This document shows positions 26,922-32,327 of a stretch of 37,218 nucleotides of DNA, one piece after another. The notes under the pieces were generated by a model. The model searched no databases, was not told where the DNA came from, and worked only from the letters and a program-made list of their open reading frames with translations. The stretch comes from an uncultured Pelagibacteraceae bacterium. Lineage in GTDB: Bacteria; Pseudomonadota; Alphaproteobacteria; Pelagibacterales; Pelagibacteraceae. The stretch is from NCBI GenBank assembly GCA_902611175.1, contig CACLYQ010000013.1:1-37218 (forward strand), written 5' to 3'. A program made the position numbers and the translations under genes. Each line of letters starts with the position of its first letter. Within the stretch, counting starts at the first letter, position 1.

Positions 26922-27485
26922 TTACCTTGGAGATCTTTTTGATAGAATTCTTTGAAGTGTTCTTCGATGCATTTTAAGTCTTCTTGCAGTCTCAGATACA
27001 TTTCTGTTACATAATTCAAAAACTCTGTGAATATGTTCCCATTTAACTCTATCAGCGGACATTGGATTTTCTGGTGGAGCAGCTTTTTTATTTGGATCAG
27101 CTAAAAGTGCTTTTTCTACGTCATCTGCATCTGCTGGTTTAGCTAAATAGTCTATTGCACCTTCTTTGATGGCTGCTACTGCAGTTGGTATATTTCCATA
27201 GCCAGTAAGCATCACTATTCTGCTCTCTGAGTTATTTTTCTGGATTTCTTTTACAACTTCTAGTCCGTTTCCATCGTTTAGTCTCAAATCAACAACTGCA
27301 AAAGCAGGTTTTTTTGATTTCACAGACTCTATTCCAATTTTTACACCCTCTGCTTGTGAAACAGAAAAGCCCTTTTTTTCCATTGCTCGAGCTAGTCTTT
27401 CTCTAAAAGGGTTATCATCATCTACTATAAGTAGAGATTTATCCTTAAATTCTGTTATTTTTTTTAATACTTCTGCTTCTGGCAT
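26922..27485 (-). CDS. regA: Redox-type response regulator, RegA/PrrA/ActR family
   Basis: A 187-residue two-domain regulator. The receiver has SLLIVDDDNPFRERLARAM (acidic pocket about 22-24), phospho-acceptor Asp 66 in VVDLRLNDGNGLEV, and the MLTGYGNIPTAVAAIKEGAIDYLAKPAD block. A Pro-rich linker (about 134-141) leads to a Fis-type helix-turn-helix: NVSETARRLKMHRRTLQRIL. In Rhodobacter and rhizobia this family, paired with the sensor RegB/ActS, controls respiration, photosynthesis and nitrogen or carbon fixation by redox state. No sensor gene is adjacent here. A weak TTGAAA-N18-TATAAG pair lies immediately upstream on the minus strand and would give an almost leaderless transcript. Confidence 0.92.
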   Translation of the reverse strand: MPEAEVLKKITEFKDKSLLIVDDDNPFRERLARAMEKKGFSVSQAEGVKIGIESVKSKKPAFAVVDLRLNDGNGLEVVKEIQKNNSESRIVMLTGYGNIPTAVAAIKEGAIDYLAKPADADDVEKALLADPNKKAAPPENPMSADRVKWEHIHRVFELCNRNVSETARRLKMHRRTLQRILSKRSPR

Positions 27486-27629: not shown

Positions 27630-28808
27630 ATGCAAAAATTTAAATCAGTTGATAAATTGGTAAACCAACTGAAACCAACAGAACCTGTTTATTGTATTAG
27701 AAGAGATTCTATAAATATAGCTTCTAAATTTTTTCAGAATAAATTTCCTGGTAAAATCCTATATGCAGTTAAAACTAACCCGCATCCATTAGTATTAAAA
27801 ACTATCGTGGAAAGCGGAATTAATGATTTTGATATCGCTTCAATTAAAGAAGTTGAGGCAATTAGAAGTGTTAGCCCAGATGCAAAATGCTCCTACATGC
27901 ATACTGTAAAAAGCAAGGAAAGTATAAACGAAGCATATTTCAATTATAATATTAAGACTTTTTCAATAGATACAAAAGATGAATTAATAAAAATTCTTAA
28001 TAGTACTAATCAAGCTAAGGATTTAGAATTATTTGTGAGAGTTGCAGTTTCTAATGAACACGCAGAAATAGATTTATCTAAAAAATTTGGCGCACAAACT
28101 TCTGAAGCAATAGGGCTTTATAGATTAACAAAACAGTATGCAAAAAAAATAGGATTAAGTTTTCATGTGGGTTCGCAATGTATGCATCCAATATCCTATT
28201 CAAAAGGGATTAATGAAATTAAATATATAATAAAAAAAACAAAAATAGTTCCAGATGTTATAAATATAGGCGGAGGATTTCCGACAATCTATCCTGACTT
28301 AGTTCCTCAATCATTAGACTCTTATTTTGAGGAAATAAAAAATTCATTAAATAAATTAAAATTAGAAAAAAAACCAGAAATTATATGTGAGCCAGGTCGA
28401 GCAATTGTTGCAGAAAGTGGTTCGACAATTGTGAGAGTAAACTTAAGAAAAAAACAAAAGCTATATATTAATGATGGAACATATGGAACTTTATTTGATG
28501 CGGGTGTGCCTAATATAGTTTATCCATCAAGGATAATTACAAGTGGAAGAATTATATCAAAAAAATTGACTTCATTTGATTTTTATGGACCAACATGTGA
28601 TAGCATGGATTATATGAAGGGACCTTTTATTCTACCTAATAATATTAAAGAAGGTGATTACATTGAATTAGGTCAATTAGGAGCATACGGATTGACATTT
28701 AGAACTCAATTTAATGGATATTATTCTGATAGTATTTACGAAGTTTGTGATGATCCAATAATGACGATGTATGACAAAGAAACAAATAAAGAGTTTCTTG
28801 TTGCATAA
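27630..28808 (+). CDS. Fold-III PLP-dependent decarboxylase, probably ornithine decarboxylase
   Basis: A 392-residue enzyme of the alanine-racemase/DapDC fold. PLP Lys 48 is in LYAVKTNPHP; HVGSQ (179-183), GGGFP (214-218) and EPGRAIVAE (254-262) bind the cofactor; Cys 323-Asp 324 in GPTCDSMD and GAYG near the C-terminus complete the active site. The CD pair and the length favour ornithine (or lysine/ornithine) decarboxylase over diaminopimelate or arginine decarboxylase; Asp 290 in YGTLFDAG may be the substrate-recognition Asp. It would supply putrescine. GGAG at 27620-27623 is its ribosome site. It heads a four-gene operon and shares TAATG with the next gene. An arginine decarboxylase function would explain the downstream agmatine genes and cannot be excluded. 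Confidence 0.88.
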   Translation: MQKFKSVDKLVNQLKPTEPVYCIRRDSINIASKFFQNKFPGKILYAVKTNPHPLVLKTIVESGINDFDIASIKEVEAIRSVSPDAKCSYMHTVKSKESINEAYFNYNIKTFSIDTKDELIKILNSTNQAKDLELFVRVAVSNEHAEIDLSKKFGAQTSEAIGLYRLTKQYAKKIGLSFHVGSQCMHPISYSKGINEIKYIIKKTKIVPDVINIGGGFPTIYPDLVPQSLDSYFEEIKNSLNKLKLEKKPEIICEPGRAIVAESGSTIVRVNLRKKQKLYINDGTYGTLFDAGVPNIVYPSRIITSGRIISKKLTSFDFYGPTCDSMDYMKGPFILPNNIKEGDYIELGQLGAYGLTFRTQFNGYYSDSIYEVCDDPIMTMYDKETNKEFLVA

Positions 28809-29848
28809 TGTCAGATACAAAAAATCTTAATCATAACAGAAAAAAAGACTTTTTAAGTAAAGAGGTTGAACATATTGATATTACATCTTTTGACTCTAGA
28901 AAAATTATATCTTCTATGGAAAAAATGTCTTTTGTTTCAAGAGAAACTGCTAATGCATCCAAGATATATAATGAAATGCTTAAAGATAAAGATTGCACAA
29001 TATTCTTAACTCTTGCAGGGTCTACTTCTGCCGCTGGATGTATGCATATTTATAGAGATATGGTTAAATACAACATGGTAGATGCAATTGTAGCAACTGG
29101 AGCATCTATAATAGATATGGATTTTTTTGAAGCGCTTGGATTTAAACATTACCAAGGATCACAATATCAAAATGATAATGAACTTAGAGACAATTATATA
29201 GATAGGATTTATGATACTTACATCGATGAAGAGGAGCTCCAGGTTTGTGATAAAACAATAGGAGAAATAGCAGACAAACTTGAGCCGAAGTCTTACACAT
29301 CGAGAGAATTTATTAAAGAGATTGGCAAGTATCTAAAAACTAATTCTAAAAAGAAAGGTTCTTTAATTGAAACAGCTTTTGATAACGATGTACCTATATT
29401 CTGTCCTGCATTTACAGACTCAAGTGCAGGTTTTGGATTAGTCATGCATCAAGAGAGAAATCCAAAAAATCATATTACAATAGACTCAATTAGAGAATTT
29501 AGAGAATTAACAGAGATTAAAATTAAATCTAAAGGTTCGGGATTATTTATGATTGGTGGTGGAGTTCCTAAAAACTTTATACAAGACACGGTAATTTGTG
29601 CTGAACTTTTGGGAAAAAATGTAGATATGCACAAATATGCAATACAAATTACTGTTGCTGACTCAAGAGATGGGGCTTGCAGTAGTTCAACATTAAAAGA
29701 AGCAAGTTCATGGGGTAAGGTTGATACTACCAAAGAACAAATGGTATTTGCTGAAGCTACTAGTGTTTTACCATTAATAGCAAGTGACGCCTTTCATACT
29801 GGAGAGTGGAAAAATAGAGACAGAAAAAACTTTTCCAAAATATTTTGA
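28808..29848 (+). CDS. Deoxyhypusine synthase-like protein, possible homospermidine synthase
   Basis: A 346-residue NAD-dependent aminobutyl-transferase-like enzyme of the deoxyhypusine synthase (DS) family. Recognisable are FLTLAGSTSAAGCMHIYRDMV (65-85), VDAIVATGASIIDMDFFEALG (91-111), CPAFTDSSAGFG (199-210), the NAD-site glycines of MIGGGVPKNFI (248-258), and the catalytic-type Lys 304 in ASSWGKVD, the position that carries the aminobutyl group in the eukaryotic enzyme. Bacteria lack eIF5A, so the true acceptor is probably a polyamine such as putrescine, giving homospermidine; plant homospermidine synthases arose from this same family. Placement between a decarboxylase and agmatine enzymes supports a polyamine role. 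Reaction and acceptor are inferred. Confidence 0.85.
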   Translation: MSDTKNLNHNRKKDFLSKEVEHIDITSFDSRKIISSMEKMSFVSRETANASKIYNEMLKDKDCTIFLTLAGSTSAAGCMHIYRDMVKYNMVDAIVATGASIIDMDFFEALGFKHYQGSQYQNDNELRDNYIDRIYDTYIDEEELQVCDKTIGEIADKLEPKSYTSREFIKEIGKYLKTNSKKKGSLIETAFDNDVPIFCPAFTDSSAGFGLVMHQERNPKNHITIDSIREFRELTEIKIKSKGSGLFMIGGGVPKNFIQDTVICAELLGKNVDMHKYAIQITVADSRDGACSSSTLKEASSWGKVDTTKEQMVFAEATSVLPLIASDAFHTGEWKNRDRKNFSKIF

Positions 29849-29851
29849 TTG

Positions 29852-30733
29852 ATGATCAAAAAAGTAAAAATTGGAATTATTCAAAGTAAAATTTCAGATA
29901 ATACTCAAAAAAATATAAATTCAGCTATTAAAAATATAAAAAAAGCAGCATCAAAAAAAGCTAAAATAATTTGTGTACCAGAACTATTTTTATCAAATTA
30001 TTTTTGTCAAACAGAAAGTCATTCCAACTTTAAACTAGCGGAAAAAATACCCGGCAGAACTACAAAAATATTTTGTGAATTAGCCAAAGATTTACAAACA
30101 GTATTAATGATTTCATTATTTGAAAAAAAAACACATGGCTTCTATCATAATACTAGTATCGTTATTAGCGAGAAAGGTAAAATTTTATCAAAATATAGAA
30201 AAATGCATATACCAGATGATCCTGGTTATTATGAAAAATTTTATTTTACTCCTGGAGATTTAGGTTTTAAATCTGTTAAAACAAAATTTGGTAAAATTGG
30301 ACCTTTAATTTGTTGGGATCAATGGTTTCCAGAAGCTGCAAGATTGACTGCACTTAAAGGTGCACAAATAATTTTTTACCCTACTGCTATTGGATGGCAT
30401 CCTAAAGAGAAAAAAAAATTTGGAAAATCTCAACTAGATTCTTGGATAACAATGCAAAAATCTCACGCAATCGCAAATGGTACTTATGTGGTTGCTATAA
30501 ATAGAGTTGGAACAGAAAAAAAAGGTAAGAAGAAAATAGAATTCTGGGGAAACTCAATGATCATAGATCCTAGCGGGCAAATAATTGGAAAACTTGGGAA
30601 TAAAAAAGAAGAAATTTTAATTCGTGAAATAAACTATAAAAAAATTGATTCAGCCAGAGAGCATTGGCCTTTTTTAAGAGATAGAAGAATCGATTTTTAT
30701 AAAGGCATACTAAAAAATCCTGCAGATGAATGA
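29852..30733 (+). CDS. aguB: N-carbamoylputrescine amidohydrolase
   Basis: A 293-residue nitrilase-superfamily hydrolase converting N-carbamoylputrescine to putrescine, CO2 and ammonia. The catalytic triad is visible as Glu in CVPELFLSNYFCQ, Lys in KYRKMHIPDDPGYYEKFYF and Cys in PLICWDQWFPEAAR; the DDPGYYEKFYFTPGD stretch is characteristic of AguB among nitrilases. ATG 29852 is preferred over the TTG just before it. It begins three bases after the stop of the DHS-like gene and overlaps aguA by 8 bases. Paired with the downstream deiminase it completes the agmatine-to-putrescine route. Confidence 0.94.
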   Translation: MIKKVKIGIIQSKISDNTQKNINSAIKNIKKAASKKAKIICVPELFLSNYFCQTESHSNFKLAEKIPGRTTKIFCELAKDLQTVLMISLFEKKTHGFYHNTSIVISEKGKILSKYRKMHIPDDPGYYEKFYFTPGDLGFKSVKTKFGKIGPLICWDQWFPEAARLTALKGAQIIFYPTAIGWHPKEKKKFGKSQLDSWITMQKSHAIANGTYVVAINRVGTEKKGKKKIEFWGNSMIIDPSGQIIGKLGNKKEEILIREINYKKIDSAREHWPFLRDRRIDFYKGILKNPADE

Positions 30734-31778
30734 AAACTTTAATGGATTTAGAATGCCGGCTGAATGGGAGCCTCAAAATTCAGTTTGGATTGCTTGGCCT
30801 TATAATAAAAACGATTGGCCTGGATTATATCAATTTATTCCTGAAGTAATTTTAAAGATTATTAAAAAAATTTCAAAAAATCAAAAAATTAACTTAATCG
30901 TTAGCAAAAATATAAAAAATATAAAAAAATTAATAAAACTTAATAAAATTAAAAATATCAACTTCCACTATATTAAAACTGATAGAATATGGTTAAGAGA
31001 TTCTGGACCCATCTTTATAACAAATAAAGTCGAAAAGAAAAAAGTAATACTAAATTTTGGTTTTAACGGATGGTCAAAGTATAAAAATTATAAAAATGAC
31101 AATAAAATCAATAATAGTATTAGTAAAATTGCTAATTTTAAAAAGATTGATCCAATAATCAAAAAAAAAGGCAGAATTAGAAAAATAATCATGGAAGGAG
31201 GGGCATTTGATATAAATGGCTCAGGTACAATTTTATTAACCGAAGAATGTTTGTTAAGCAAAATTCAAGAAAGAAATAAAAATTTTAAAAAAAAAGACTA
31301 CGAAAAAATGTTTAATAAATACTTAAATATAAAAAACTTTATATGGCTTAAAAAAGGAATTGCAGGCGATGATACACATGGACATGTTGATGACATATCA
31401 AGATTTGTTTCAAGAAATACAATTATGACTGCAGTTGAAAAAAATAAAAAAGATATAAATTACAAAAACTTAAATAAAAATTTAAATATATTGAAAGAAA
31501 GTAAATGTGAGAAAGGAAAGAAATTCAAAATTATAAAAGTTCCTATGCCTTCACCAATTTATATTGAGAATACAAGAGTTCCTGCAAGTTATATGAATTT
31601 TTATATTTGTAATAAAAAAATAATTCTTCCAATATTCAAAGTAAAAGAAGACAATATTGCAATTAAAATTTTCAAAAATTACTTTAGAAATAGAAAAATC
31701 GAAACAGTTGACTGTAGCAAATTGATATGGGGATTTGGTGCAATACATTGCATGACCCAACAAGAACCTAAAATTTAG
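30726..31778 (+). CDS. aguA: Agmatine deiminase
   Basis: A 350-residue enzyme of the guanidino-group-modifying superfamily, hydrolysing agmatine to N-carbamoylputrescine and ammonia. Motifs are FRMPAEWEPQNSVWIAWP at the N-terminus, DRIWLRDSGPIFI, MEGGAFDINGSGT, GDDTHGHVDDISRFV, and the catalytic Cys in WGFGAIHCMTQQEP near the C-terminus. The central part (about 125-200) is unusually Lys/Asn/Ile-rich. Its ATG overlaps the aguB stop region. Agmatine would have to come from import or from an arginine decarboxylase not present as a separate gene here. The stop is adjacent to that of the convergent transporter gene. Confidence 0.95.
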   Translation: MNENFNGFRMPAEWEPQNSVWIAWPYNKNDWPGLYQFIPEVILKIIKKISKNQKINLIVSKNIKNIKKLIKLNKIKNINFHYIKTDRIWLRDSGPIFITNKVEKKKVILNFGFNGWSKYKNYKNDNKINNSISKIANFKKIDPIIKKKGRIRKIIMEGGAFDINGSGTILLTEECLLSKIQERNKNFKKKDYEKMFNKYLNIKNFIWLKKGIAGDDTHGHVDDISRFVSRNTIMTAVEKNKKDINYKNLNKNLNILKESKCEKGKKFKIIKVPMPSPIYIENTRVPASYMNFYICNKKIILPIFKVKEDNIAIKIFKNYFRNRKIETVDCSKLIWGFGAIHCMTQQEPKI

Positions 31779-32327
31779 TTATGCTGCTTTTAGTGTGCCG
31801 AGTAATAATCTAAAAGGTATCAACATTACAAGAGCTACAAATATTTTTACCGCAAGATCTCCTAACGATAAAGTTACCCAAGGAATTCCCGTTCCATAGA
31901 ATGATATTGAGAAAAATAAAAAAGTATCAACAGTTGAACCTATTAAAGAAGATGTTAAAGGTGCTATAAACCACTTTTTTTGTCTTAATTGATCAAATAT
32001 CTGAACATCTAAAAGTTGAGCAATTATAAAAGCTGTTCCTGAACCAATTGCTATTCTTATAGAAATAAGATCAGTAAAATTAGTTGAAAATATTAAAGTA
32101 AATAAAATTCCAATTGTGAAGCCTATATAGACAATTTTTCTAGCTACTAATTTTCCAAAGGATCTGTTGGCTAAATCTGTAATTAAAAATGCAATTGGAT
32201 AACTAAAAGCACCGTAAGTTAAAATTTCCTCTAAACCGTAATATTTTATAGGAAACTGAACTAAATAATTAGATGCTAGCACAACCAATCCCATTAAAAA
32301 TGAGAGAGTAAGGAAAACTTTATTCAT
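31779..32327 (-). CDS. yhhQ: Queuosine precursor transporter (YhhQ/VUT family)
   Basis: A 182-residue inner-membrane protein with about six transmembrane helices. The diagnostic stretches are TYGAFSYPIAFLITDLANRSFGKLVARKIVY, with the conserved Asp after a proline-bearing helix, and IFDQLRQKKWFIAPLTSSLIGSTVDTFLFF. YhhQ-type carriers import queuosine precursors (preQ0/preQ1), used for the wobble base of GUN tRNAs, which suits a cell scavenging the precursor. The start shares a base with the rpmB stop (TAATG). A broader VUT-family transport role remains possible. Confidence 0.88.
   Translation of the reverse strand: MNKVFLTLSFLMGLVVLASNYLVQFPIKYYGLEEILTYGAFSYPIAFLITDLANRSFGKLVARKIVYIGFTIGILFTLIFSTNFTDLISIRIAIGSGTAFIIAQLLDVQIFDQLRQKKWFIAPLTSSLIGSTVDTFLFFSISFYGTGIPWVTLSLGDLAVKIFVALVMLIPFRLLLGTLKAA

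Follow-up and report, generated by a model that had tools for sequence, protein, structure and literature searches.

The question raised by a compact polyamine gene cluster in an uncultured Pelagibacteraceae bacterium (contig CACLYQ010000013.1 of GenBank assembly GCA_902611175.1, positions 1 to 37,218; this whole stretch of 37,218 nucleotides is referred to below as the window) is whether its homologue of deoxyhypusine synthase (DHS) condenses putrescine prepared by the agmatine enzymes AguA and AguB, or couples agmatine itself and leaves AguA and AguB to trim the product. The genome of origin (G000) is an incomplete Pelagibacterales (SAR11) genome (970,553 bases, 52 contigs, completeness 73%). 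The cluster consists of four genes:

27630..28808, + strand, pyridoxal phosphate (PLP) decarboxylase gene, 392 aa
28808..29848, + strand, DHS homologue gene, 346 aa
29852..30733 (ATG start), + strand, AguB-like gene, CN_hydrolase
30726..31778, + strand, AguA-like gene, 350 aa, PAD_porph

The initial annotation, made from the sequence alone, had described four overlapping or abutting genes, and the reading frames and junctions were found exactly so, all on the + strand: the decarboxylase and DHS genes share one base, at 28808, in the sequence TAATG; DHS and AguB lie 3 bases apart (29849-29851), and AguB and AguA overlap by 8 bases (30726-30733). An alternative TTG start at 29849 is possible for the AguB-like reading frame. 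All four proteins matched their Pfam families above cut-off, and it is fair to infer that the four genes form a single transcript.

We propose, with a probability of roughly 60%, that this operon leads from arginine to homospermidine without free putrescine as an obligatory intermediate, with AguA and AguB as the finishing enzymes. The decarboxylase would convert arginine to agmatine; the DHS homologue, using NAD and K304, would join two agmatines with loss of ammonia to give 1,9-bis(guanidino)-5-azanonane (caldomycin); AguA would convert both guanidino ends to carbamoyl ends, which AguB would remove as CO2 and ammonia to leave homospermidine. In sister SAR11 lineages, the same product would be finished by a ureohydrolase encoded at the corresponding position of the operon. 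Both the use of agmatine by the DHS homologue and the later action of AguA and AguB are what we infer here, and AguA and AguB, if relaxed in specificity, may still convert agmatine to putrescine for spermidine.

The DHS homologue scored 575.5 bits (cut-off 500) against NF002699, an NCBIfam family named after the Thermus caldomycin synthase CdmS. Six other DHS-type models listed were each below their own cut-off for this protein; scores were 238.7 bits for TIGR00321 (true deoxyhypusine synthase; cut-off 304.25) and 181.6 bits for NF001980 ("homospermidine biosynthesis protein"; cut-off 450), the latter being, we assume, the model for SpeY. A catalytic lysine had been placed at position 304 and action on a free polyamine had been predicted; K304 was confirmed, and the prediction is judged to be right. 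CdmS of Thermus (TTHA1570) joins two agmatines and leaves putrescine and spermidine unused, after which the ureohydrolase SpeBap yields homospermidine (Kobayashi et al. 2024, PMC10981699; this and the other papers cited here are drawn on in excerpt). In the tests described there, agmatine was the sole acceptor among those tried, and N1-aminobutylagmatine was a minor intermediate of the two-enzyme reaction (PMC10981699). Because the window DHS passes NF002699, whose CdmS couples two agmatines and ignores putrescine, the bolder of the two routes first put forward, i.e., agmatine as the DHS substrate with AguA and AguB acting afterwards, has gained in likelihood and is the better supported one, by family membership as well as by the residues shared with CdmS.

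Six of the seven substrate and catalytic residues of CdmS are identical in the window DHS, where S72, E141, D148, F209, E298 and K304 correspond, at a constant offset of +5, to S67, E136, D143, F204, E293 and K299; the exception is C291 for L286. Human DHS has Asp at both the Phe204 and the Leu286 positions. The window protein is 55.7% identical, over 334 columns, to the Thermus arciformis orthologue; identities of CdmS to the human, plant and cyanobacterial enzymes compared were 27-33% (PMC10981699). A scan of genome contigs for DHS, of which the best 80 of 586 confirmed stretches were kept, found the guanidino-site Ser, Glu, Asp and Glu and the catalytic Lys in 80/80 and Phe in 79 of these NF002699 members, with Leu in 61 and Cys in 19 at the Leu286 position, again among the best 80 of 586. 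In 67 aligned alphaproteobacterial NF002699 proteins, Phe was present in all but that of G281, which has Met, and Cys was present in all. As Phe occurs in 66/67 and Cys in 67/67 of them, these two residues cannot separate substrates within the family, and their value as proof of agmatine use is weakened, the near-invariant set including genomes that possibly make putrescine first. Overall, the sequence data lead us to predict that the window DHS is of the caldomycin synthase type, i.e., that it couples agmatine to agmatine.

An NF002699-like DHS, 55% identical to that of the window, was also observed on two Nostocaceae plasmids (L073:6536-9038 and L074:6494-9038), behind an ornithine aminotransferase gene and amid iron-uptake genes, a context hinting at a siderophore-linked polyamine.

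Agmatine supply had been regarded as open, on the grounds that no arginine decarboxylase gene accompanies aguA, and the simpler route had included ornithine as a source of putrescine. The window decarboxylase is of the alanine racemase (AR)-fold ornithine/diaminopimelate/arginine type by profile (Pfam Orn_Arg_deC_N/Orn_DAP_Arg_deC, above cut-off), has the conserved residues K48, H179, C323 and D327, and shares 59-99% identity with decarboxylases linked to DHS elsewhere in SAR11. Two purified SAR11 homologues named ornithine decarboxylase (ODC), from Pelagibacter and Fonsibacter, decarboxylated arginine and neither ornithine nor lysine (Li et al. 2023, PMC9992855). Agmatine supply is therefore not open; these assays conflict with the supposed lack of an arginine decarboxylase and leave the ornithine part of the simpler route without support, and we set the ornithine route aside. 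By its kinship to the homologues assayed by others, the window enzyme is probably an arginine, not an ornithine, decarboxylase.

AR-fold decarboxylase matches numbered two in 27 of the 28 SAR11 genomes searched and one in G038 (ODCs of the aspartate-aminotransferase fold were not searched). The second match is presumably lysA.

The description of the cluster as one compact polyamine operon proved right, and the gene set is conserved across Pelagibacterales beyond chance: DHS was present in 136 of 197 genomes (133 over cut-off), all in family f1, with AguA linked to it in 53, and no genome of the second family (f2) gave a DHS match. Behind DHS, the 136 genomes carried either AguA (53; AguAB type) or a ureohydrolase (79; SpeB type), and never both together. 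AguA lay 904-914 bases behind the DHS match in the 53 genomes, with AguB between DHS and AguA in 24/24 AguA-type loci read (window included); the ureohydrolase lay 5-23 bases behind DHS in 76 genomes and 211, 819 and 833 bases behind it in three. A guanidino-removing module, of two unrelated kinds, was hence found behind DHS in 132/136 genomes, and the four left over are contig breaks (the contigs of G194 and G191 stop approx. 1 kb behind DHS, that of G107 stops within DHS, and G171 has its DHS divided between two contigs, the ureohydrolase lying beside the C-terminal piece). None of the f1 genomes had an operon-type AguA or ureohydrolase and no DHS. On a 67-row DHS tree (24 of the 53 AguAB and 28 of the 79 ureohydrolase SAR11 loci, 12 class-sample rows labelled by genome content, and 3 unlabelled rows), the finisher label required 8 changes, at least 6 of them forced by starred branches.

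Among 241 alphaproteobacterial genomes, 15 had a DHS over cut-off, of which 8 had an adjacent ureohydrolase and no AguA and 7 had AguA and no adjacent ureohydrolase (P = 1.6e-4, Fisher test, kinship not corrected for; a sixteenth genome, G381, with a divergent DHS was left out of this count). AguA adjoined DHS in G000 and G293, lay approx. 3 kb off in G248 and G427, and was far from it in G205, G289 and G401. AguA as such was not commoner with DHS (7/15 vs 74/226; P = 0.27). In other phyla, a ureohydrolase or AguA/AguB was near DHS in 17 loci among the best 80 of 586 of the scan (60-bit limit; some loci cut by contig ends), and tight linkage of DHS to a finisher was rejected as a general rule. 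The swap shows the operon to be accompanied by one or the other kind of guanidino-removing module; on its own it does not give the order of the steps. The interchange of finishers behind DHS in SAR11 is new here, and two unrelated finishing modules exchanged at least six times behind one conserved enzyme represent a natural experiment in pathway modularity.

Individual loci of this kind showed further peculiarities. Two SpeB-type SAR11 genomes, G015 (L221:3792-4574) and G133 (L222:3820-4602), had an extra gene for a 260-aa PhzC-PhzF (isomerase-like) protein between DHS and the ureohydrolase. The DHS-linked ureohydrolase of G158 (G158:C1:288115-288980) was in two overlapping pieces, each with internal stops, and looks broken or badly assembled. 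The divergent DHS of G381 (L163:6802-8642; 83 bits to NF002699, without Ser72 and Phe209 and with a stop) adjoins a ureohydrolase with 31% identity to its SAR11 counterpart, making this locus a possible further DHS-ureohydrolase pair.

Among the residue evidence we weighed the loss of a tail-binding Glu in AguB most. The window AguB scored below the cut-off of the N-carbamoylputrescine amidase (CPA) model TIGR03381 (298.1 vs 410.25 bits) and keeps the catalytic Glu, Lys and Cys (E45, K118 and C155, numbered from the TTG start as is H184 below). In the Medicago CPA, Glu187 holds the free amine tail of the substrate and sets its length, and is said to be conserved in CPA enzymes (PMC4812014). 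The window AguB has Trp-His, the His being H184, in place of the plant Ser186-Glu187, directly behind a conserved PTAIG. In an alignment of 62 AguB, the Glu187 position was His in 24/24 SAR11 copies and in G289, and Gln in G205, all of them DHS-bearing; the three other DHS-bearing genomes aligned (G293, G248 and G427) had Glu, and AguB from DHS-lacking relatives, represented only by copies adjoining AguA, had Glu in 33/33 (19 from f2 and 14 others). Loss of this Glu is expected if AguB trims a longer product, and the change fits a longer-tailed substrate, i.e., caldomycin and its derivatives. The AguB Glu loss in SAR11 is new here. In the f2 genomes (L032-L051), AguA was observed to adjoin AguB, with Glu187 kept in 19/19 AguB, and the 4-kb loci yielded no recognisable decarboxylase of the DHS type.

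A class-wide AguB search gave matches over cut-off in 47/241 genomes, and Glu was present in 41 of the 44 loci taken from it (a set overlapping the 62 AguB), that of G401 included; the exceptions were the AguB of G395 and G430, described below, and a second, lower-scoring copy in G219 with a gap at the Glu position. We also searched for AguB in 50 of the 80 genomes of the scan (the best 80 of 586 stretches), all 50 DHS-bearing, and read 30 loci. In this sample, AguB-like proteins of 277-331 bits from other phyla (L310-L324) had Glu in 0/15 (8 Trp-His, 6 Trp-Ala and 1 Asn-Ile), two AguB over cut-off and one of 228 bits kept it, and the remaining matches below 260 bits resembled other nitrilases. 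The AguB-like protein of PDB entry 6mg6 is also without the Glu. SAR11 has the AguB lineage with Trp-His or Trp-Ala beside DHS; the lineage also occurs in genomes that carry DHS under the labels Chlorobi, Chloroflexi, Planctomycetota, Acidobacteria and Cytophagales. Tentatively, and at somewhat less than even odds, this lineage and its AguA, annotated as putrescine makers, may be a pair dedicated to trimming guanidino-polyamines (caldomycin to homospermidine), in which case homospermidine synthesis would bypass putrescine in these organisms. Coupling of agmatine ahead of trimming, if true, would correct the current drawing of the pathway and rename a widespread AguA/AguB lineage.

AguA shows a parallel change at a tail ligand. 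It scored 246.5 bits against the agmatine deiminase model TIGR03380 (cut-off 381.8) and keeps the catalytic Asp, His, Asp and Cys (D92, H220, D222 and C342). In the Medicago agmatine iminohydrolase (AIH), of the same families and catalytic residues as AguA, Asp89 is a water-mediated ligand of the amine tail (PMC6447857). The window AguA has R87 at this position, which was Arg in 24/24 SAR11 sequences and G289, Leu in G205, and Asp in the four other DHS-bearing genomes and in 90 of the 98 remaining sequences. The score below cut-off was dropped as a sign of new function, given that all ten other AguA tested were also below it; the four DHS-lacking or unlinked controls missed less badly, the three DHS-lacking ones being highest (324-370 vs 223-270 bits). 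The AguA and AguB trees, likewise, were not upheld as proof of specialisation with larger AguA sampling. In the first trees, whose DHS-lacking rows were the best-scoring ones only, all AguA from DHS-bearing genomes stood on one side (94/89), as did AguB with weak support (67/69). A 128-row AguA tree (without the cut AguA of the DHS-lacking G395) placed the SAR11/G205/G289 lineage alone (26 rows, support 1.0), and in it the other four DHS-bearing AguA mixed with three DHS-lacking ones, so that the label needs 4 changes.

Cultured SAR11 cells provide a view of the end products. HTCC1062 natively contained both spermidine and homospermidine, and HTCC7211 only spermidine (Noell et al. 2021, PMC8437039). 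Added spermidine caused no significant homospermidine rise in SAR11 cultures, added norspermidine raised both homospermidine and spermidine in HTCC7211, and the authors concluded that the DHS homologue Dys2 is not primarily a homospermidine synthase (PMC8437039). An enzyme confined to agmatine should not respond to spermidine, and the proposed pathway, if true, would help to explain why homospermidine did not rise. SAR11 makes spermidine by a fusion of S-adenosylmethionine decarboxylase (AdoMetDC) and aminopropyltransferase (PMC11107197), and a Spermine_synth match was found in 26 of the 28 SAR11 genomes searched. The putrescine required could come from an unlinked ureohydrolase; that of G003 passes the agmatinase model NF002564 (314.3 bits, cut-off 302), and 32 of the 53 AguAB-type genomes have one of this score class, among them the genome of the window (G000:C1:44195-45013).

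Several observations weigh against the proposed pathway. No feature within NF002699 distinguishes agmatine users from putrescine users. Four DHS-bearing genomes (G293, G248, G427 and G401) have an ordinary AguB with Glu, a window-like AguB with Gln for Glu occurs in G395, where DHS was not found (8% contamination), and the otherwise ordinary AguB of G430 has His for Glu. The Glu loss stems from a small number of independent events, and the disappearance of a residue that confers specificity does not prove that the substrate has changed. AguA, for its part, keeps Asp220, a direct amine ligand. The norspermidine effect in HTCC7211 and the lack of native homospermidine there are not explained by a CdmS-type enzyme. 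Finally, the unlinked ureohydrolase is missing or weak in 21 of the 53 AguAB-type genomes, some of them incomplete; in these, therefore, agmatine may be a further substrate of AguA and AguB, or the cells may take up putrescine.

The main rival explanation is that arginine yields agmatine, AguA and AguB yield putrescine, and the DHS homologue, as SpeY, condenses two putrescines to homospermidine. The SAR11 cluster has been labelled in this way (PMC9992855), the Zymomonas gene set has been proposed to work so (PMC8594446), and putrescine is given as the substrate from which SpeY enzymes form homospermidine (PMC9992855); the retained catalytic residues of AguA and AguB and the ordinary AguB of the four genomes named above agree with it. 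Nevertheless, we consider it unlikely, as family and residues favour CdmS, for which putrescine was not a substrate in the tests cited, the NF001980 score is only 181.6 bits against a cut-off of 450, and loss of Glu187 would be odd in an enzyme specific for N-carbamoylputrescine. Coupling of agmatine to putrescine, with AguA and AguB acting on both agmatine and N1-aminobutylagmatine, would be permitted by a relaxed tail site in these two enzymes and recalls the minor Thermus intermediate (PMC10981699), but agmatine as the sole acceptor of CdmS among those tested (PMC10981699) makes it quite improbable. We give hardly any credence to another job altogether, in which DHS would cleave or reshuffle imported triamines or AguA and AguB would act on a guanidino compound with a carboxylate tail. 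Dys2 has been considered for spermidine metabolism, in line with the rise of homospermidine and spermidine in HTCC7211 given norspermidine (PMC8437039), and AguA has Arg, and AguB His, in place of an acidic tail ligand; however, the same authors preferred SpeE over Dys2 (PMC8437039), the first enzyme of the operon is a decarboxylase that probably yields agmatine, and in G205 the two tail-ligand positions are occupied by the neutral residues Leu and Gln.

Agmatine coupling followed by deiminase-amidase trimming, as preferred here, combines parts already on record: the route by agmatine coupling has thus far been shown in the hot-spring bacterium Thermus alone, and publications describe the gene set for SAR11 and, in two operons, for Zymomonas. 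The Thermus thermophilus pathway (PMC10981699) shares the NCBIfam DHS family, nearly the same substrate residues, and the predicted agmatine substrate and homospermidine product, whereas its finish is a ureohydrolase rather than a deiminase-amidase pair, and the window differs further by forming one operon with the decarboxylase and by Cys for Leu286. Li et al. drew SAR11 clusters (legend of their Figure 2: ODC/ADC, DHS/SpeY, NCPAH, AIH) with AIH and NCPAH in Ca. Fonsibacter ubiquis and an arginase/agmatinase in Ca. Pelagibacter ubique (PMC9992855); the window cluster matches that of Fonsibacter in type and gene content. That work predates caldomycin, and in it the decarboxylases were assayed, while DHS was called homospermidine synthase, and AIH and NCPAH putrescine makers, by description (PMC9992855). 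Zymomonas mobilis, with sym-homospermidine as major polyamine, has a decarboxylase-DHS operon together with AguA and AguB, unlike the window in two operons (ZMO1020-ZMO1019 and ZMO1369-ZMO1370) and with putrescine proposed to come first (PMC8594446). In the model proposed for Haloferax volcanii, DHS also transfers agmatine and agmatinase removes the guanidino group afterwards, but the acceptor is the lysine of aIF5A and not a second agmatine (PMC5178350). The Medicago AIH (PMC6447857) and CPA (PMC4812014) share families and catalytic residues with the window enzymes, and their Asp89 and Glu187 are Arg and His in the window. A deiminase-amidase finish of a coupled guanidino-polyamine was not found in the literature searched, in which caldomycin, caldomycin synthase and aminobutylagmatine occurred only in PMC10981699. 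Agmatine coupling ahead of trimming would make the intermediates guanidino-polyamines, which ordinary polyamine profiling could miss because the Thermus product is invisible to the usual polyamine reagent (PMC10981699).

The window gave no Rfam match at gathering scores, and no phage DHS was matched among 50,697 phage records (IMG/VR was not scanned). PHROGs yielded nothing for the decarboxylase, DHS or AguA; AguB matched three nitrilase-like families. The operon is flanked by two genes on the opposite strand:

26922..27485, - strand, upstream flank, ActR/PrrA/RegA response regulator (NF033791, 312.6 bits, cut-off 250)
31779..32327, - strand, downstream flank, Vut_1/queuosine-precursor transporter (Vut_1 and TIGR00697 above cut-off)

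Among the SAR11 loci examined, the ActR regulator was upstream in 22/23 of the AguAB type and 30/30 of the SpeB type, and the Vut_1 transporter was downstream in 11/23 and 26/30, respectively.

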